From assembly GCF_000373925.1 (NCBI RefSeq), contig NZ_KB892753.1, positions 1-64,000 of the forward strand: a DNA stretch of 64,000 bases. The letters run 5' to 3'. The notes under the pieces were generated by a model, which did no database searches, was not told where the DNA came from, and was given only the letters and a program-made list of their open reading frames with translations. Position numbers and translations under genes: made by a program. Shown piece by piece: positions 18,107 to 56,228 of this stretch; the stretch's first letter is position 1; every line of letters begins with the position of its first letter. The stretch is from Actinopolymorpha alba DSM 45243. Lineage in GTDB: Bacteria; Actinomycetota; Actinomycetes; Propionibacteriales; Actinopolymorphaceae.

Positions 18107-18248
18107 GTCAGCCTGCGATCCACCCTGCACAGTTCAACCCGTCCCTTCAGCTCCGAGCCGGCCAGGCCGTGTCCCGTCAATCTTCCTGGAGGTCTTGGCT
18201 TGACTGGCCGTTGCGAGCTTCGTCTCACACTCTGGTCAATCCAGAGGG

Positions 18249-18269
18249 CTGTCTCACATTGCGTACACC
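18249..18269 (+). repeat. 21-bp interspersed word, copy 1
   Basis: CTGTCTCACATTGCGTACACC recurs with small changes at 37942-37962 (minus strand) and 38043-38063. The other two copies lie in opposite orientation within a large intergenic inverted repeat. Here it lies directly before the hairpin and palindrome of 18279-18355. Confidence 0.5.
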
Positions 18270-18278
18270 TGACGGGTA

Positions 18279-18355
18279 CTTCACATGGCTAGCACCTGCC
18301 TTGCATGGCGTCCATGCCATGTGAAGCCCCTAATGACCACGTAAACGTGATCATT
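18279..18355. repeat. Composite hairpin + palindrome element, copy 1
   Basis: An 11-bp perfect hairpin (CTTCACATGGC at 18279-18289 with GCCATGTGAAG at 18316-18326) is followed by the near-perfect palindrome AATGACCACGTAAACGTGATCATT (18332-18355). The same pair of structures, with 12-24 bases of matching sequence, occurs at 56168-56228, and a variant at 50433-50520. It lies between the end of the discoidin-protein gene and the start of the methyltransferase gene. Confidence 0.7.
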
Positions 18356-37771: not shown

Positions 37772-37844
37772 AGCCTGCAGCAGCATCGCCCGCCCGCATC
37801 ACCGACTTGTCCGAAGTTTGCTGGTTGTCAAACGCAGGCGTCAT

Positions 37845-37891
37845 GATCATGAAGGATTCTCGTCGCTATTTGACCAAAATCTTTCATGATC
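37845..37891. repeat. 14-bp hairpin GATCATGAA...TTCATGATC
   Basis: GATCATGAAGGATT (37845-37858) pairs with AATCTTTCATGATC (37878-37891), with one wobble and a 19-base loop. It is the first of three inverted-repeat structures in the gap between the MocR and HtrA genes. Confidence 0.6.
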
Positions 37892-37916
37892 CTCGAATAC
37901 CCACGATCCAAATGCC

Positions 37917-38134: not shown

Positions 38135-38189
38135 GAACCTTGAGTAGATGCCCAGTTCTGCGTGCAAACTGGGCATCTACTCAAGGTTC
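38135..38189. repeat. 23-bp perfect inverted repeat with 9-base loop
   Basis: GAACCTTGAGTAGATGCCC (38135-38153) continued by AGTT pairs perfectly with AACTGGGCATCTACTCAAGG continued by TTC (38167-38189). Only nine bases (38158-38166) separate the arms. It is too long and too perfect for an ordinary terminator and lies downstream of the HtrA-like gene end (38352, minus). Confidence 0.75.
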
Positions 38190-38351
38190 AACAAGCACGA
38201 GCCCGCCAGCCCAGCCCGCTGACGCGGAGACGATCGGGCGACATCACTCACCGAGACGTCAAGGCGAGCCTGCGAGCAGTCCGGTGAGGGCTGTCGCCCG
38301 ATCGACCCCGCCCCAACAATCAGCCAGCGCCGCACCCCGCGCGAAACCGGG

Positions 38352-49340: not shown

Positions 49341-50414
49341 GTGACCGAATTCTTCGGCCGGCATTCCGGCCATGAGCAGGTCGTGTTCTGCGCCGACGAA
49401 CCCTCAGGCCTCAAGGTCATCATCGCCATCTACTCCACCGCACTCGGTCCCGCGCTCGGCGGGACCCGCTTTCACCCCTATCCCAGCGAGGACGCGGCGC
49501 TCACCGACGCGCTCAACCTCTCGACCGCGATGGCATACAAAGCCGCCCTCGCCGGACTCGATCTCGGTGGGGGCAAAGCGGTCATCATCGGCGATCCCGA
49601 CCAGGACAAGACCGAGGCGCTCCTCCGGGCGTACGGCAGATTCATCCAGTCCCTCGGTGGCCGCTACATCACCGCCTGCGACGTCGGCACCTACTCGCCC
49701 GACATGGACGTCATCGCCCGGGAATGCGAGTTCGTCACCGGCCGCACGGTCGAGCAGGGCGGTGCGGGTGATTCGTCCGTCCTGACGGCGTACGGCGTCT
49801 TCCAGGGCATGCGGGCCGGAGTCGAGCGGCTCTGGGGCACTCCCAACCTGCGCGGGCGGAGGGTCGGCATCGCAGGCGTGGGCAAGGTCGGCCGGCATCT
49901 CGTCGAGCACGTGCTGGGCGCGGGCGCCGAGGCGGTGGTGACTGACGTATCCCCGCAGGCCCTCGCGGAGGTACGTCGTACCCACCCACAGGTCGAGGTC
50001 GTCGACGACAGCTCGAAGCTGGTGCGCTCCGACATCGACATCTTCGCGCCCTGCGCCCTCGGCGGCGCTCTGGACGAGGAGACCGTCTCAGTCCTGCGCG
50101 CCCGGCTGGTCTGCGGCGGCGCCAACAACCAACTCGCCCACCCGGGGATCGACAAGATGCTGGAGGAAAGGGCGATTCTGTACGCCCCCGACTACCTCGT
50201 GAACGCCGGCGGGCTGATCCAGGTGGCCGATGAGCTGCACGGCTTCAGCTTCGAGCGGGCCAAGGCACGCGCGGCCAGGATCCTCGAGACGACTCACCGC
50301 GTGTTCGACCTCGCGTCCGAGGAGGGCGTACCCCCGGCCGTGGCCGCCGACCGGCTGGCCGAACGCCGGATCGCCGAGGTTGGCCGCCTCCGCTCGATCT
50401 GGCTCCGCCGCTAG
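49341..50414 (+). CDS. vdh: Glu/Leu/Phe/Val dehydrogenase (valine/leucine dehydrogenase type)
   Basis: A 357-residue NAD-dependent amino-acid dehydrogenase. The catalytic Lys residues are Lys67 ([10 protein letters not shown]) and Lys79 ([12 protein letters not shown]). [10 protein letters not shown] is the substrate-side motif, and [21 protein letters not shown] is the NAD loop. Length and motifs fit branched-chain dehydrogenases (Leu/Val) rather than glutamate dehydrogenase. Its location beside bldC matches vdh of Streptomyces, hence the symbol; substrate preference is not proven. GTG 49341 follows AAGGAG at proper distance. It deaminates branched-chain amino acids, feeding acyl-CoA starters. 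Confidence 0.88.
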
Positions 50415-50432: not shown

Positions 50433-50520
50433 GGAATGATCACGTTAACGTGATCATTCCCCACGATGCGTGGTGAATTGGACGTGCATCGTGGGGACTT
50501 GCCGAGTAAACGTGATCATT
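50433..50520. repeat. Composite palindrome-hairpin-half-palindrome element, copy 2
   Basis: A perfect 28-bp palindrome (50433-50460; half-site GGAATGATCACGTT) is followed by an 11-bp hairpin (CCCCACGATGC 50459-50469 with GCATCGTGGGG 50486-50496) and by the half-palindrome TAAACGTGATCATT (50507-50520). It fills the gap between vdh and the next regulator. The ACGTGATCATT half-site is shared with 18332-18355 and 56137-56228. Confidence 0.75.
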
Positions 50521-50584
50521 TCGAGCCAGCCCGCGTCCCAACCCGATGTCGCGTCGCCGTGCCGTCTGGCGGATCATCATTGAT

Positions 50585-51703
50585 ATGGCAAAGGCGGAGC
50601 CGAAATACCTGTGGATCAAGCAGCAGCTGTTGGGCGAGATCCGACGGGGTACGCACGCCGCGGGGCAGGCGTTCATCACCGAACGCGAGGTCTGTGAACG
50701 CTTCGGGGTCTCCCGGATCACTGCGGTCCGCGCCCTCAACGACCTCGTCCACGAAGGTGTCCTGACCCGCAAGCGCGGCGTCGGCACCTTCGTCGCGGAC
50801 CAGACCGAGCAGCGCCCGCGCCCGCCGTCGTTGATCGGCTGCGTCTTCGCCGAACTCAGCGGCCACCACGTGCTCGAGATCCTGGCCGGGATCCAGCAGG
50901 CCTGCGGCTCCGTCGGCGCGAGCGTACGGCTCTTCGACTCGGCCTCCGACCCCGCACGCGAGCTGGCCAATCTCGACCAGGCCCGCCGAGCCGGTGTGGA
51001 CGGACTGGTGGTCTACCCCGTCGATGGCCAGACGAACGCCAGCGCGATCGCCGATCCAGGACCGCCGGTCGTGCTCGTGGACCGCTACCACCCGGCGTTC
51101 CCGACCAACGCCGTCCTGCCTGACAGTTTCCGGGCCGCCGTCGTCGTCACCGAGGACCTCCTCGCCCGCGGACATACGCGGATCGGCGTCGCCTGGGGCG
51201 AGGTCGACTGCAGCAGCGTGCTCGAGCACCTCGCGGGTCATCGCCGGGCACTGCTCGACCATGGCGTCCGGGTCGACCCGGAGCTGTCCGCACTGCTGCC
51301 GTACGACCGTTGGCCGGAGGCCGAACGCCGCAACCTGCTGCGGTCCTGGCTCGACCGCTCTCCGGCCGATCAGCCAACAGCGCTGGTCGGTGTGAACAGC
51401 GAGGTGGTGTTTCTCCTACGTACGGACCTCGCGGTGCTCGGGGTCGCGCCGGACCGGTTCGCCTGGGCGGCGTTCGGCGATGACAACCCGACCGCTCTCC
51501 GCGCGATCGGCGCCGCGGGCGCGACCCTCCCGTCGCGGCAGATGGGTGTCGCGGCTGGCAGGTTCCTCCTCGACCGGCTGGCCGAGGAGGTCGCACTCCC
51601 CATCACCCACCTCGTCCTGCCGGTACGCCTGACGACGGCAACCACCGGGAGGCCTGAACCTGACAGCGCAATTGACATATCAAAGGGAGCGCGCCGAGCC
51701 TGA
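50585..51703 (+). CDS. GntR-headed regulator with LacI-type sugar-sensing domain
   Basis: A 372-residue regulator. The N-terminal 75 residues are a GntR winged helix (YLWIKQQLLGEIRRGTHAAG, FITEREVCERFGVSRITAVRAL, GVLTRKRGVGTFVAD). The rest is a periplasmic-binding-like sensor as in LacI/AraR proteins (LEILAGIQQACGSVGASVRL, VDGLVVYPVDGQ, LLARGHTRIGVAWGE). AraR-type regulators of this build sense sugars. ATG 50585 is chosen. The word CATATCAA (or its complement) overlaps its own start (50580-50587) and recurs at 51676-51683 just before the glycosidase genes, a possible operator. It likely controls the two downstream glycosidase genes. Confidence 0.92.
   Translation: MAKAEPKYLWIKQQLLGEIRRGTHAAGQAFITEREVCERFGVSRITAVRALNDLVHEGVLTRKRGVGTFVADQTEQRPRPPSLIGCVFAELSGHHVLEILAGIQQACGSVGASVRLFDSASDPARELANLDQARRAGVDGLVVYPVDGQTNASAIADPGPPVVLVDRYHPAFPTNAVLPDSFRAAVVVTEDLLARGHTRIGVAWGEVDCSSVLEHLAGHRRALLDHGVRVDPELSALLPYDRWPEAERRNLLRSWLDRSPADQPTALVGVNSEVVFLLRTDLAVLGVAPDRFAWAAFGDDNPTALRAIGAAGATLPSRQMGVAAGRFLLDRLAEEVALPITHLVLPVRLTTATTGRPEPDSAIDISKGARRA
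51672..51683. promoter_or_regulatory. TTGACATATCAA operator-like palindrome
   Basis: TTGA-CATA-TCAA is a short palindrome at the end of the regulator gene, 25 bases before the first glycosidase start. The core CATATCAA also occurs in the opposite orientation at 50580-50587, overlapping the regulator's start codon. Confidence 0.4.
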
Positions 51704-51707
51704 GCGC

Positions 51708-54308
51708 ATGGCGGGCATCCCTGAAAGGTCACGCCGGTGGTTCCTCTCCCGAGGCGGTGGCCTGTTCCTCACCTCTTCCACACTCGGGCCCGGCCTGGTC
51801 GGGCCGTTCCTCGGTAAGGGTCGTGCGGCCGCCTCGGCCGGAACGCGGGCGTTCCGGCTCGGCGAGGTACGACCCGGCAACGTCTTCCATCCCAGCCAAC
51901 CGATGGCCCTGCGCCAGGTCGTGACGGATCTGTCCGGACTCGGCGGGACGTACGAAATCGATCTGACGACCAAGGACGCGGCCGGCGAGGTCATCAGCCA
52001 CCGCACCGACACCGTGCGCCTCGCGCCCGGTCAGACGCACGAGCGGGACGTACCTGTCGGGGGCGACACACTCGGCCACTACACGGCCACCGCGGTCGTC
52101 CGAACGGACGGCGGCACGACAGTCGCCACCACGGCCAGCGCGCTGGCCCGCGTACCCAGCCCACCGGGACAACTCCAGCCGCACTCGCCGTGGGGCATTG
52201 GCAGCGGCGGCGCCTGGATCGGGATCCGTTTCGACGCGGCGGAGGCCGCCAAGCGGCTGCGGCTGGTCGCCGAGGCCGGTATCGCCTTCACCCGCGAGGA
52301 GATCTTCTGGGACAACCTCGAACCCAGCAAGGGCGAGTGGCACTGGGAGCGGTTCGACCCAGCGGTCATCGCCGCCCGCGAGCACCAGGTGTCGTTCCTC
52401 GGCCTGCTGGACTACTGGGCACGCTGGTCCATCCCGGACGGCTACCAGGAACGGCCACATCCGACGCCCTGGCCGCAGGCCGTCGACAACTTCGCGAACT
52501 TCTGCTTCCAGGTCGTGAGTAGATACAAGCCGGGCGGAGTCCTCGCCCGTAGCCAGGGATGGCGGGACGGCTACGGCATCCGGCACTGGGAGGTGTGGAA
52601 CGAGCCGCCGACCTTCTGGTTCGGGACCGCGCAGGAGTTCGGCCGGATCGTCCGCGCGGCGTCGGCGGCAATCCGGCGCGCCGACCCCAAGGCGTTCGTC
52701 GTCGTGTCGAACGGCGGACCGACCTTCGACCAGCAGGTGATCGACGTCGCCGGCGTCGAGGCGTACGACGCGCTGGCGATCCACCTCTACCCGGGTCCGA
52801 CCGGTCCGGAGGCCGGCGGGTTCGTCGAGCAGATCCGCGAGTCCCGGGCGTTCCTCGACCGCAACGACGGCAGGCGGGTGAAGCTGTGGGTCACCGAGAC
52901 CGGCTGGAACGTCAAGGGCGGCGTGTCGGCGTGGGAGCAGGCCAGCTACCTCGTCCGCGCGAACATCGAGTCGGTCGCGGCCGGGGTCGAGCGGATCCTC
53001 GACTTCACCCTGCTGTACGGCGGTGAGGGCTGGGGCATCCTCGACGACGAAACGCATCCGAGGATCGCCTACGCGGCGTACGCGACCCTCGCCGACCGGC
53101 TGCGCGACCACCGGCCCCGCACGGCCGAGCCGATGGGTGCCGCGGTGCGGGCCTACGTCTTCCAGGGCGCCGACCGCGCGACCGCCGCGGTGTGGAGTAC
53201 CGCCGAAGATGGCCGGCTCGAACTCGACGCAGGTGGTTCCGTCCTTGATACGTACGACCTGATGGGAAACCGGATCGGGTCGGCTCGTGGTGCGACAGAC
53301 CTCGCGCTCACCGGGCGGCCGGCGTTCATCGTCGCCCGGGATCTCTCCGCGCAGCGACTTGGCCGGATCATCCGCGACGGCCGGGTCCGCGGCATCGCGC
53401 CGCTCGGGATCGCGATCGACAATCTCGCCGACCTGCCGTCCAGGCTGCCGGATCTGACGGTCACGATCACCAACCGGATCAACGTGCCGCAGCAGGGCCG
53501 CGCCACGATCTCGCTGCCGGAAGGCTGGCAGGTCCGCGACCGGTCGTTGGCGTACGGCCCGCTCGCGCCGGGTGAGTCGGTGGTGCTGAGGTACGCCCTG
53601 ACGCGGGTCGCCCCGAACGCCGACAACGCCTACCCGGTCGAGGTCACCGCGACCACGAACGCCGACCCTGGCCAGCTGACCGCGCGGACGACGCTGTTCG
53701 TCACGGCCGTCGTACGCGGGAGCCCGGCGATCAACGGGACGCTGGACGGCTTCCGGGCGGGCGCCCCCGTGCATGTCGACCGCCCGGATCAGGTGGTCGG
53801 CATCCCGGAGTGGACGCCGACCAACTGTTCCGCGATCGCGTGGGCGATGTGGGACCACGAGTACTTCTACTTCGCCGCCAGCGTCACCGACGACGCGTTC
53901 AGCCAGCCCCACACCGGCGGCGACATCTGGAACGGCGACAGCGTCCAGCTGATGTTCGACCCGCAGAACATCAAGCAGGGCAAGCCTCCTTCGGCTCAGG
54001 AGGTCGGCCTCGCGCTGACATCACAGGGCGAGCAGGTCTACCGCTGGAGTGGCGGGTCCAGCTCCGTCCCCGGGGCGCGGCTGGTCTGCGGCCGGGGCGA
54101 GAACGGCAACCTGGTCTACACCTGCGCGCTGCCGCTGTCGGAGCTGCGGATCGATGCGCGGGTGGGCACGCGGATCGGCCTGGACTTCCTCGTCAACGAC
54201 AACGACGGCGGCGGCCGGTCGGGCTGGATCTACTGGACGCCCGGCATCGGCAACGCCTGGGACTCGTCGAAGTTCTCGACCTGGACCTTTGTGGATACGG
54301 AGATCTGA
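51708..54308 (+). CDS. Tat-exported clan-A glycoside hydrolase-like protein with CBM9-like domain
   Basis: An 866-residue secreted protein. The leader RSRRWFLSRGGGLFL is a twin-arginine signal. After a beta-sandwich part (about 50-160) comes a TIM barrel (about 165-470) of the GH-A type, closest in style to GH39/GH5: acid/base Glu299 in WEVWNEPP and nucleophile Glu397 in LWVTETGW, about 100 residues apart as expected. A beta-rich region follows, and the last 190 residues (YFYFAASVTDDAFSQ, IWNGDSVQLMFDPQ) look like a CBM9-type sugar-binding domain. Start 51708 is a choice; TTG 51672 is in frame upstream. It shares the TGATG junction with the next glycosidase. Confidence 0.82.
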   Translation: MAGIPERSRRWFLSRGGGLFLTSSTLGPGLVGPFLGKGRAAASAGTRAFRLGEVRPGNVFHPSQPMALRQVVTDLSGLGGTYEIDLTTKDAAGEVISHRTDTVRLAPGQTHERDVPVGGDTLGHYTATAVVRTDGGTTVATTASALARVPSPPGQLQPHSPWGIGSGGAWIGIRFDAAEAAKRLRLVAEAGIAFTREEIFWDNLEPSKGEWHWERFDPAVIAAREHQVSFLGLLDYWARWSIPDGYQERPHPTPWPQAVDNFANFCFQVVSRYKPGGVLARSQGWRDGYGIRHWEVWNEPPTFWFGTAQEFGRIVRAASAAIRRADPKAFVVVSNGGPTFDQQVIDVAGVEAYDALAIHLYPGPTGPEAGGFVEQIRESRAFLDRNDGRRVKLWVTETGWNVKGGVSAWEQASYLVRANIESVAAGVERILDFTLLYGGEGWGILDDETHPRIAYAAYATLADRLRDHRPRTAEPMGAAVRAYVFQGADRATAAVWSTAEDGRLELDAGGSVLDTYDLMGNRIGSARGATDLALTGRPAFIVARDLSAQRLGRIIRDGRVRGIAPLGIAIDNLADLPSRLPDLTVTITNRINVPQQGRATISLPEGWQVRDRSLAYGPLAPGESVVLRYALTRVAPNADNAYPVEVTATTNADPGQLTARTTLFVTAVVRGSPAINGTLDGFRAGAPVHVDRPDQVVGIPEWTPTNCSAIAWAMWDHEYFYFAASVTDDAFSQPHTGGDIWNGDSVQLMFDPQNIKQGKPPSAQEVGLALTSQGEQVYRWSGGSSSVPGARLVCGRGENGNLVYTCALPLSELRIDARVGTRIGLDFLVNDNDGGGRSGWIYWTPGIGNAWDSSKFSTWTFVDTEI

Positions 54309-56026
54309 TGCGGAACGACGACAGACGACTTCACCGCAGGCGCTTCCTCGAACTCGGGGGTGGGGCGGTGGCCGGCCTCTCGGTCGCCGGAGCAGGTGCC
54401 CTGCGGCCATCATCGGCCGCAGCCGACGCCACGCGCTCGCGCAGCTTGGAGATTGACGCCAACCAGCGCACGGGAGAGTTCAACCGCAAGCTGTTCAGCG
54501 TGGTGGGCGTCACCCAGGACACCGGCCTGAAGGTGGACAGCTGGAAACTCCTCAACCCCGCCGGCACGCAGTCACGGCTCGAGGTCGCCATGGCGGAGGT
54601 GGCGCCACAACGCGGCGCGTTCGACGTCAAAGAGATGTTCATCTACCTGGACAACACCAACGACCGATTCTTCAACCAGGTCGTGGGCGCGGGTCTGGAG
54701 CCGGTGCTGCTGTGCTGCTATTCGACGTCCTGGTTGGGTAATCCGCCAACCGATCCGCAGGGTTGGGCGGACATCGTGGCCCAGGTCGTCGAGCACTTCA
54801 ACGGCGTACCCGGACCGGACTACCAGCTCCGGGTGAAATACCTCGAGATCTGGAACGAGCCCAACCATCCGATGTTCTGGAAGGGTACGCCCGAGCAGTT
54901 CCACGCCCTGTTCAAGATCGCCGCACACACGATTCACGACAGGTTCCCGGGCGTCCTCGTCGGTGGTCCGGCGTTCTCACCCGGTTTTGACGGCTATTAC
55001 GAATACGGCAAGGCCTTCGTCGACGCCGCCGGCGACGACATGGACTACTTCATCTACCACTCCTACGGCGATGACCCGCCGAAGATCGCCGCCGACATCA
55101 CCTTCTGGCGCGACTACATCAGGACGCACACCCGGCACGCCGACCCGCGCCTCATGGTCACCGAAGCCGAGTCGTTCAAGGACTCCGACGCGGTGAAGGT
55201 GCAGAACCTCATCGGGCGGCAGTTCACGCTGCTCGACCACGCGGATTCGCTGATCGGCTGGCATCAGTTCAAGCTGTACGAGTACAAGGAGGGTTGGTAC
55301 ACCTTCGGGCTGGTCTACAACGACGGCTCGGTCTTCGGGCGCAACTACTGGCCCTACTGGCTGTTCCGCGACGCCGACGGACAGACGGTCCGCGGCAGCG
55401 GCGCCGAGGACGATCCGGGTGGCCACCAGGTCGCCACGGTCTCCCGCGCGGGTGCCCGGGTCAACACGGTCTACTGGCGCGACCCCGAGGTGGCGACCGG
55501 CCGCCAGCTCACCAGGTTTTCCATCCGGCTGCCGCGGGAGCCGCGGATCGACCGGATACTCACGGTGTCCCGGGTACGCGGGACGACCGGCGAGGTGATC
55601 GCCGCCCGCAAGGTGAGCCGCGGGGTGCCGCTCTGCGAGTACTCCGTGCAGGTCGAGCCAGGCGAGGCAGTCTCGCTGACCCTCGACGACGCCGCGGCGG
55701 CAACCACGCCCTGGGTGGGGCTGGCGGCGACCGCCTCTTCGGTCGCGGTGGGTACGCCGTTCACCGCCGCGGTGAACGTCCTCAACACCACGCCGCACCC
55801 GATCTCCGGTGAGGTCCACCTGGCCGGCCTCCCCGCCGGATGGACCACCGAGCTTCAGTCGGGTACCCCCACCTTCGGCGGTCTCGACACCGGCGATCAG
55901 GCCAGGACGACCTGGCGGATCACGCCAACCGCGCCGACCAAGGGTGCCGTCGCCTACCGGGCGATCGCGATGCTCGGCGCTGGAGCGACCCACCACTCGA
56001 TCCCGATCCGGATCACAGCCGCCTGA
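54308..56026 (+). CDS. Tat-exported clan-A glycoside hydrolase-like protein (GH39-like)
   Basis: A 572-residue secreted enzyme. The signal HRRRFLELGGGAVAGLSVAG is twin-arginine. The barrel (about 50-345) has acid/base Glu184 in YLEIWNEPNHPMFW and nucleophile Glu286 in LMVTEAES, with YFIYHSYGDDP between, as in GH39 xylosidase/iduronidase relatives. The C-terminal 120 residues (ATASSVAVGTPFTAAVNVLN, PHPISGEVHLAGLPAGW) are a NEW3-like alpha-galactosidase-associated beta domain. ATG overlaps the previous TGA by one base, so the pair is coupled. A 16-bp hairpin lies 49 bases after the stop. Substrate unknown; a uronic-acid or xylose glycan is plausible from the neighbour Udh-like gene. Confidence 0.83.
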   Translation: MRNDDRRLHRRRFLELGGGAVAGLSVAGAGALRPSSAAADATRSRSLEIDANQRTGEFNRKLFSVVGVTQDTGLKVDSWKLLNPAGTQSRLEVAMAEVAPQRGAFDVKEMFIYLDNTNDRFFNQVVGAGLEPVLLCCYSTSWLGNPPTDPQGWADIVAQVVEHFNGVPGPDYQLRVKYLEIWNEPNHPMFWKGTPEQFHALFKIAAHTIHDRFPGVLVGGPAFSPGFDGYYEYGKAFVDAAGDDMDYFIYHSYGDDPPKIAADITFWRDYIRTHTRHADPRLMVTEAESFKDSDAVKVQNLIGRQFTLLDHADSLIGWHQFKLYEYKEGWYTFGLVYNDGSVFGRNYWPYWLFRDADGQTVRGSGAEDDPGGHQVATVSRAGARVNTVYWRDPEVATGRQLTRFSIRLPREPRIDRILTVSRVRGTTGEVIAARKVSRGVPLCEYSVQVEPGEAVSLTLDDAAAATTPWVGLAATASSVAVGTPFTAAVNVLNTTPHPISGEVHLAGLPAGWTTELQSGTPTFGGLDTGDQARTTWRITPTAPTKGAVAYRAIAMLGAGATHHSIPIRITAA

Positions 56027-56069
56027 GAACGCGTACCGCCTACCACCGAACCCACGGAGAACACGGCCT

Positions 56070-56114
56070 ACGTAGAACGCGGCCCAGGCAAACTGCCTGG
56101 GCCGCGTTCCACGT
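56070..56114. terminator. 16-bp perfect hairpin after glycosidase operon
   Basis: GAACGCGGCCCAGGCA (56075-56090) pairs with TGCCTGGGCCGCGTTC (56094-56109) around a 3-base loop, and flanking ACGT bases extend the stem past one mismatch. It lies 49 bases after the glycosidase stop and probably ends that transcript. Confidence 0.75.
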
Positions 56115-56136
56115 CCCCGGCCGCGCCGCCCCGGCC

Positions 56137-56228
56137 AAATGATCACGTATACGTGGTCATTTGCTGCTTCACACGGCATCGGCACCATGTAAGGCCCGTA
56201 ATGACCACGTAAACGTGATCATTACGGG
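56137..56228. repeat. Composite palindrome-hairpin-palindrome element, copy 3
   Basis: A 26-bp palindrome (56137-56162, half-site AAATGATCACGTA) and a 34-bp palindrome (56195-56228, half-site CCCGTAATGACCACGTA), each with one mismatch pair, flank a hairpin (CTTCACACGGC... near 56168-56193). The right half matches copy 1 at 18279-18355 in both structure and sequence. It lies between the converging glycosidase and ThuA-like genes. Confidence 0.75.

Follow-up and report, generated by a model that had tools for sequence, protein, structure and literature searches.

Palindromes in the intergenic DNA of Actinopolymorpha alba DSM 45243, including two that lie at the ends of a GntR-glycosidase gene island, belong to an apparently undescribed family of about 200 near-identical copies. 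We propose that this family is probably a non-autonomous mosaic repeat of the REP/BIME kind, though not a tagged REP, whose half-site is recognised by a putative protein. The stretch of DNA from which the analysis started (the window) is 64 kb long and corresponds to C47:1-64000 of the A. alba genome (G000). A sequence-only reading of this window had known of no such family, and we likewise found no description of this palindrome repeat in open-licence full texts. The three window elements and the genes between two of them are listed in Table 1, where P denotes the palindrome and H the hairpin linker.

Table 1. Repeat elements and neighbouring genes in the 64-kb window.
Feature	Position	Strand	Details
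Element 1, left palindrome (P)	50433..50460		perfect, 28 bp, core TA, GGAATGATCACGTTAACGTGATCATTCC
Element 1, hairpin linker (H)	50459..50496		subfamily B (CGTGGGG / AATT type); arms 50459-50469 and 50486-50496, 11 bp; loop 16 nt
Element 1, right palindrome	50498..50520		outer half-site ACGTGATCATT retained at 50510-50520; inner half is the recurrent variant CTTGCCGAGT
Element 2, left palindrome	56138..56161		24 bp, AATGATCACGTATACGTGGTCATT
Element 2, hairpin linker (H)	56162..56199		subfamily A (GCTTCACACGGC..ACCATGTAAGGC)
Element 2, right palindrome	56200..56223		24 bp, AATGACCACGTAAACGTGATCATT; centre 62 bp from that of the left palindrome
Element 3, single palindrome	18332..18355		AATGACCACGTAAACGTGATCATT
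Element 3, outer module with hairpin	18214..18332	-	11-bp arms 18279-18289 and 18316-18326
Gene island between elements 1 and 2	50546..56026	+	
GntR/LacI-type regulator	50546-51703	+	
CBM9-domain protein	51708-54308	+	
GH39-like protein	54308-56026	+	

The sequence-only reading had described a perfect 28-bp palindrome, an 11-bp hairpin and a half-palindrome at 50433-50520, a palindrome-hairpin-palindrome order at 56137-56228, and a partial copy with hairpin and palindrome at 18279-18355, all sharing one half-site and lying between genes, with one element at each end of the GntR/two-glycosidase unit. Positions, order, half-site (ACGTGATCATT) and placement were borne out. The "half-palindrome" of element 1 stood in part: its half-site is present, but the other half is not simply missing, being a variant that recurs at C2:107207. 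This variant right half (..GGGGACTTGCCGAGT) resembles the caps (..GACTTGCCGCGTGAG) of related repeats that lack P, which suggests that P, H and caps have been recombined, and element 1 looks like a mosaic that has kept the 62-bp layout. In element 2, each 24-bp palindrome departs from symmetry at one T/C or A/G position outside the core, and the right palindrome is prolonged to 56195-56228 by the flanks CCCGTA and TACGGG. Modules related to the outer one of element 3, each about 200 bp long, are present at C1:272221, C1:279009 and C62:34660. The 22-mer ATGAYCACGTNNACGTGRTCAT matches four times in the window, against a mean of 0.02 and a maximum of 1 in 100 dinucleotide shuffles. As single-stranded DNA the three loci fold with z-scores of -6.7, -5.4 and -4.9 (5-7 SD better than shuffles), and Rfam has no match in the window at the gathering threshold. 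A separate terminator-like hairpin is seen at 56070-56114, ahead of element 2.

Genome-wide, the 7.98 Mb of A. alba (127 contigs) contain 199-200 palindromes with up to three mismatches, against none for a reversed-pattern control, and 41 exact P-N40-P units. The palindrome is thus not confined to three places in one genome: about 200 copies, intergenic in 51 of the 54 examined, and a homologous version in another genus (genome G007) support the repeat family for which the sequence-only reading had proposed a genome search.

The full unit, P-H-P, is an 84-bp quasi-palindrome in which two palindromes of 22-24 bp enclose a folding linker of 40 bp. P takes the form AATGATCACGT-NN-ACGTGATCATT, NN being A/T in the 35 units that were read, and the palindrome centres lie 62 bp apart in every one of these units. 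Left and right palindromes are reverse complements of each other, with outer half ATGATCACGT and inner half ACGTGGTCAT, exactly so in 20 of the 35; the unit is therefore one 84-bp inverted repeat, each arm of which is itself palindromic. Linkers fall into subfamilies A (28/35) and B (7/35). A shortened unit with a spacing of 27 bp (C35:37959-37986) stands outside the 35, as does one chance palindrome pair at 219 bp, and length is not absolute, one A. alba unit in the covariance-model search being 102 long rather than 104.

We read 1.64 Mb (20% of the genome: C1, C2 and C3 whole, most of C25, and parts of C35, C47 and C62), and because these contigs were picked for holding copies (81 of about 200) their palindrome density is not that of the genome. 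Palindromes in this sequence number 65 with no mismatch, 16 with one, 0 with two, 1 with three, 10 with four and 31 with five. Among the 41 with four or five, seven are variant partners in units and one belongs to the shortened unit, while the remainder look random. In seven of the 35 units the weaker palindrome has 4-5 mismatches, and in one it has 3.

The family also occurs in the genome as solo P, as larger mosaics, and as H-like units with other ends. Five of the 19 solo palindromes are made exactly of two outer halves, a form that would arise most simply by loss of the 62-bp interior between palindrome centres. One host repeat carries a solo P in two copies and a full P-H-P in another, in each case between the same two module halves, which indicates that the two forms interconvert or replace each other. 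Outer modules recur around the palindromes, giving mosaic composites. A covariance model found six weaker places (22-31 bits) distant from any palindrome: in five, a hairpin resembling the linker carries another inverted repeat (CTCACGCGGCA..TGCCGCGTGAG type) as its cap, and the sixth belongs to a second repeat family. Each outer half-site contains the palindrome TGATCA, which is not avoided here (631 observed, 524 expected).

Conservation is distributed very unevenly along the unit. Pairs of subfamily-A units (28 compared) differ on average by 2.5% in one outer half-site and 1.3% in the other; for the inner half-sites the values are 9.3% and 5.0%, the linker reaches 28%, and the distal flanks about 70%. 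These figures are biased towards conserved palindromes because units were recognised by them, though up to five mismatches were allowed in one palindrome. Neutral decay after insertion would not look like this. Nor would passive decay of old insertions leave so few palindromes with 2-3 mismatches next to a linker that has diverged by 28%; it follows that either selection acts at each site or insertions are recent and come from diverse sources. The divergence pattern poses the same choice: it needs either selection per site, or young copies of diverged sources that would be mobile only with intact half-sites.

The two arms also vary in concert to some degree. In an alignment of 28 of the 35 units (A1, from which the seven variant-palindrome units were left out), a whole-unit hairpin pairs 88.6% of cells with a covariation of 0.146, compared with 84.2% and 0.109 for three local hairpins, and the 2-bp cores of the two palindromes change together (A-U 14, U-A 10, unpaired 4). 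Of the five pair measures computed for the whole unit as one hairpin, two are no higher than in shuffles (both-side changes 12 vs 12.9; further pair types 31 vs 31.4). Flank positions -2, -3 and -4 are complementary within the unit in 22, 21 and 27 of 35 cases, against shuffled means of 14.3, 13.4 and 21.9, and from position -5 outward the 35 units show no clear excess over shuffled ones. A function in RNA only was considered and rejected: differences between the arms of the 35 units comprise 79 of G-T and 88 of A-C type, with no strand preference, and the half-site sequence is fixed.

The elements lie between predicted genes in 51 of 54 cases, the other three overlapping predicted genes. Of the intergenic ones, 20 are between convergent, 23 between tandem and 8 between divergent genes, where the background of 875 intergenic regions is 145, 510 and 220, so that convergent positions are enriched (20/51 vs 145/875, Fisher p 5e-5) on gene calls from a simple custom caller compared by eye with the window only. 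The context in G007 is similar, all of 33 sampled loci (27 of them chosen for a perfect palindrome) being intergenic and 13 convergent. Elements show no general clustering, as 12 of 46 spacings are below 7 kb (9.5 expected) and 3 below 2 kb (2.9 expected).

This excess between convergent genes, often a short distance behind stop codons, and the strongly folding DNA of the three window loci are what one would look for if the palindromes were RNA hairpins behind genes, acting as bidirectional transcription terminators or stabilisers of mRNA 3' ends. We consider this quite unlikely. Pairing is all that a stem requires, whereas the 11-bp half-sites hardly vary in sequence; of the 28 right palindromes in A1, 27 have a C-A mismatch on the + strand and are conserved all the same. 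Only one of 54 elements is followed by a run of four T, and element 2 is already preceded by a terminator-like hairpin of its own. The same positional data bear on the suggestion in the sequence-only reading that the palindromes are an operator family of one regulator, namely the neighbouring GntR/LacI-type protein or a carbohydrate regulon. One element does end 26 bp ahead of the GntR gene, and another lies behind the glycosidase genes. However, some 200 copies are spread over many contigs and enriched between convergent genes, divergent intergenic regions hold fewer than expected (8/51 vs 220/875), G007 carries about as many copies, and neighbours elsewhere are, by eye, not only carbohydrate genes; they include what we take to be glutamine synthetase-like, alanyl-tRNA synthetase-like and trpD-like proteins. 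The number of copies and their scarcity between divergent genes led us to reject a GntR operator, and any operator of this kind is very improbable.

Outside A. alba the distribution is narrow. The 22-mer with at most one mismatch occurs in none of five congeners and in two of 57 genomes searched, A. alba and G007 (one place), the latter being one genome of another genus of the family. Among 396 genomes of the phylum it matches in six, which are A. alba and five with a single one-mismatch place each, and at those five loci there is no unit (best 11.9 bits, E 0.84). The covariance model of the unit gives at least 150 matches in A. alba and 23 in G007 (150 candidates scored per genome). In six further genomes of the family, each again with 150 candidates scored, nothing reaches E 0.001; the single genome of the family's third genus yielded no repeat. 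G007 units carry CATGT..ACATG where A. alba has CACGT..ACGTG, the same transition in both half-sites, and G007 holds 227 places within three mismatches of AATGATCATGTNNACATGATCATT. A pattern with Y/R at this position matches exactly 159 times in G007, 163 times in A. alba and not at all in 243 other genomes of the order sample. Most of the 27 perfect-palindrome loci read in G007 are flanked by two different modules, a hairpin module and, across the palindrome from it, a second one; by eye, the outer module of element 3 is similar to this hairpin module.

Searches further afield returned nothing comparable. An exact scan for the G007-type palindrome in a collection of 84,980 species gave no match, and viral contigs, phages and plasmids hold no relative of the unit: three viral pattern matches extend over no more than the palindrome (best 20 bits), and by eye they lie in what appears to be coding sequence. 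A rough look at 400 kb from each of two congeners revealed no other high-copy palindrome. The draft state of the assembly (127 contigs) might raise the question of chance, assembly artefact or contamination, which we regard as scarcely credible: copies sit on many contigs in different unique flanks, contig C1 is syntenic with the congeners, the reversed-pattern control is empty, and the related family of G007 comes from a genome in a single contig.

The same letter change in both half-sites of the G007 version suggests that a sequence-specific putative protein recognises the palindromes. One such protein could be chromosomal, of the nucleoid-associated or nucleoid-occlusion type, with P as its binding site and the copies kept by selection for chromosome organisation. 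Noc and SlmA bind palindromic NBS and SBS sites, respectively, and systems of this type have sites that are conserved across relatives and depleted near the terminus, with a cognate DNA-binding protein. Half-sites that stay almost invariant while linkers diverge by 28%, the small number of partly decayed palindromes, and some 160-230 copies in each of two genera, with a paired half-site change as if site and protein had changed together, would all be expected of such a network, and among the perfect matches listed for G007 (to 4.64 Mb) there are long thin stretches, for instance at 3.12-3.53 and 3.76-4.17 Mb. An essential chromosome system would not, however, be absent from five congeners and from the third-genus genome, and the P-H-P units, the mosaic modules and the presence or absence relative to congeners resemble mobile repeats. 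We hold a binding-site network to be unlikely.

For the mobile mosaic repeat that we favour, evidence of gain comes from comparison with congeners. In C1:1-400k, aligned with the congeners G002 and G004, each of the 17 elements sits inside an alignment gap or at one; for 14 of the 17 the A. alba gap is longer than that of G004 (the exceptions being 77362, 266200 and 272221); 800 kb from G002 and G004 contain no match to the unit model. This comparison yields no exact target site, the intergenic DNA being too diverged and the junctions unclear. Likewise, occupied and empty copies of the host repeat (two empty) give no single clean junction. Repeats of 2-5 bp at offsets of 0-13 around 35 units show no excess of target-site duplication over shuffled pairings: 93 of 500 shuffles equalled or surpassed the best of them, a 2-bp direct repeat at 10 of 35, and longer repeats did no better.

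The sequence-only reading had likened the layout to REP/BIME mosaics. Copy number, intergenic position, mosaic structure and palindrome-hairpin-palindrome order agree with this, but the tag and the transposase link do not. A GTAG or CGTC tag within 8 bp of 108 element ends, on either strand, is found once and three times, respectively. Y1 transposases (PF01797) have nine matches in A. alba and seven in the congener G003, and none in G007, so a Y1 transposase is not the common present mover. Four of the nine A. alba Y1 loci were read (1.5 kb on each side); a palindrome lies about 1 kb away in one and there is none in three. With no tag, no Y1 gene flanked by the repeat at the four loci read and no Y1 transposase in G007, a REP/RAYT origin was rejected as a matter of membership. 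BIMEs proper are built from REPs and bind IHF, gyrase or Pol I, whereas the A. alba units are not tagged REPs. No mobilising gene was found in the sequence examined.

We hypothesize that the 11-bp half-site is the recognition sequence of a putative sequence-specific protein and that the repeats would have spread non-autonomously, moved in trans by that protein, which may be a transposase, a recombinase or a nuclease. Insertions would land, or survive, mostly just behind gene ends. In view of these patterns, the gene behind the sites should be common to A. alba and G007 and missing from the congeners, given two genera with about 160-230 near-perfect copies, five congeners with none, and a G007 genome that has no Y1 transposase.

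The elements that flank the GntR-glycosidase unit may matter in their own right. In each of the five congeners, the counterparts of the genes that end at 50414 and 56263 (the latter ThuA-like) sit next to each other, with 114-230 bp between aligned ends; in A. alba about 5.8 kb separates them, with one element per end. G002 has relatives of both enzyme genes of the island at other places (partial matches of 77% and 67% DNA identity), as G004 has of the GH39-like gene, so these genes are not foreign to the genus. The island may simply happen to be bounded by the two elements, or it may have been carried or targeted by them. In C1:1-400k there are 27 (vs G002) or 28 (vs G004) clean A. alba-specific insertions longer than 500 bp, of which five contain elements. 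In two of 27 islands each edge has an element no more than 150 bp away, against 0.04-0.06 by random intergenic placement (P about 0.001); over tolerances of 100-400 bp P ranges from 0 to 0.012 (3,000 placements), and at 60 bp only one island qualifies (P 0.008-0.017). Because the tolerance and the test were chosen post hoc and the window island was the starting point, we treat this excess as a lead and not as proof.

A stronger version of the same idea would make P a putative recombinase or nuclease site and P-H-P units the ends of gene-carrying mobile cassettes, enzyme and sites co-evolving so that their spelling becomes lineage-specific. Its cassettes would be the GntR-glycosidase island, a 1.4-kb methyltransferase-like island (C1:210916-212486) and a P-H...H-P unit that encloses one AbiEi-like gene (C1:229298-230583). 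We think it doubtful that the repeats work in this way. The AbiEi-like gene was also tried as the partner gene of the family and discarded, because a single close copy and four weak matches are all that the genome has. Should the island association hold, the mosaic repeats would also be a route of gene gain in these actinobacteria.

Several known systems share features with the A. alba repeat. Crossover sites of serine recombinases such as hix and gix consist of inverted half-sites of about 12 bp around a 2-bp core. The A. alba palindrome would be analogous in its succession of half-site, 2-bp core and half-site, its core varying among A/T dinucleotides while the arms are fixed; unlike hix/gix, it is present in hundreds of copies and is a candidate site only. 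The CIR repeats of Caulobacter differ from it in sequence and phylum. In the part of PMC10969869 drawn on here they are the CcrM-associated intergenic repeats, a name that connects them with a methylation site; the likeness lies in the intergenic position and in the TGATCA held by the A. alba half-site, a candidate counterpart of such a site.

MITEs of the ERIC, Correia and RUP type, as treated in that part of PMC10969869, are likewise intergenic imperfect inverted repeats of about 100 bp with no gene inside, and their copy number varies widely between relatives. The 84-bp unit has the terminal inverted repeats (its arms being reverse complements), the shortness and the lack of coding capacity of a MITE; in the 20% of the genome that was read, ends resembling those of a larger element are found only at the AbiEi-like unit. 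It differs from these MITEs in that no target-site duplication is seen, no parent insertion sequence was found in the sequence read, each arm is palindromic, and solo palindromes are common.

The closest likeness is to REP and BIME repeats, as far as the portions of PMC3733652 and PMC2817692 used here describe them: more than 100 copies, intergenic palindromes of 20-40 bp, lineage-specific sequence, mosaic modules, and positions mostly downstream of genes and between convergent or tandem ones. The same portions give BIME-1 as inverted palindrome pairs with a linker, comparable to the regular 62-bp spacing of 35 of 35 A. alba units (PMC3733652, PMC2817692). REPs are placed there mostly between tandem and convergent genes, near gene ends (PMC3733652). 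Unlike tagged REPs, the A. alba repeat has no GTAG/CGTC tag and no flanking RAYT was found at the four of nine Y1 loci read; unlike REPs, it has a long, AT-rich, near-perfect palindrome with an A/T core and a 62-bp pitch. Untagged REP-like families are noted in the consulted part of PMC3733652 for M. tuberculosis, D. radiodurans, Bordetellae, Brucellae and cyanobacteria, their relation to proteins being left open there, and these untagged palindromic repeats are therefore the nearest class. We conclude that the A. alba repeat behaves like a BIME or like an untagged REP-like repeat; we do not file it as a member of the REPs.

The P palindrome (22-24 bp, mostly intergenic) shares the 9-mer CGTGATCAT with a second hairpin repeat in the A. 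alba genome, CGTGATCATGATCGTGATCATGAAGG ... CTTCATGATCACG, which gave 27 motif matches, including some lone ones without the hairpin, in the 1.64 Mb of contigs chosen for their P copies. It is possible that the two families have recognition or origin in common. At five loci a hairpin resembling the linker H is capped by a different inverted repeat, of the CTCACGCGGCA..TGCCGCGTGAG type, in place of P; some of these are nested within a larger repeat whose ends are GTGTACGNNATGTGAGACA.

Some copies of a small MITE-like repeat, whose 11-bp ends are TTCAAAACTCC / GGAGTTTTGAA, contain P or the full P-H-P unit; two copies contain neither. Other words, CCGAGAAAC / AGGTTTCTC and AGAGGTCGC / AGGTCGCGC, are also over-represented between genes of A. 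alba, which points to additional putative repeat families there. Y1 transposase (PF01797) matches number nine in A. alba, seven in the congener G003 and none in the four other congeners.

Within the window, a strong terminator-like inverted repeat directly precedes element 2 (the P-H-P at 56138-56223), and by eye a G+C-rich hairpin occupies the corresponding gap in each of five congeners. Two further inverted repeats lie near each other.

Repeats and associated features in A. alba
Feature	Position	Detail
Terminator-like inverted repeat	window 56070-56114	21 bp
Inverted repeat	window 38135-38189	23 bp, perfect
Inverted repeat	window 38224-38311	30 bp, 87% complementary
Second hairpin repeat (further copies exist)	window 37838-37895	
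	C1:101582-101719	
	C1:208366-208524	
	C62:21817-21873	
H-like hairpin, other caps	C1:68863-68966	
	C1:401253-401312	
	C1:512785-512842	
	C2:231973-232038	
	C62:86279-86381	
MITE-like repeat	C1:185165-185275	L217
	C117:144486-144565	L218
	C2:305548-305671	L219
P-H, AbiEi-like gene, H-P	C1:229298-230583	L033:9298-10583

In G007, a genome of another genus with its own version of P, the orientation of the P core, TT or AA on the plus strand, appears to switch in long blocks along the chromosome (C1, 0.15-4.64 Mb; by eye, among the matches listed), and these blocks could reflect the replication strand.

At one A. alba locus, P-H and H-P in inverted order enclose a single AbiEi-like gene (PF13338, PF09407), an arrangement missing between the same genes of two congeners, G002 and G004. 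The C-terminal part of the encoded protein presumably resembles a nuclease domain.
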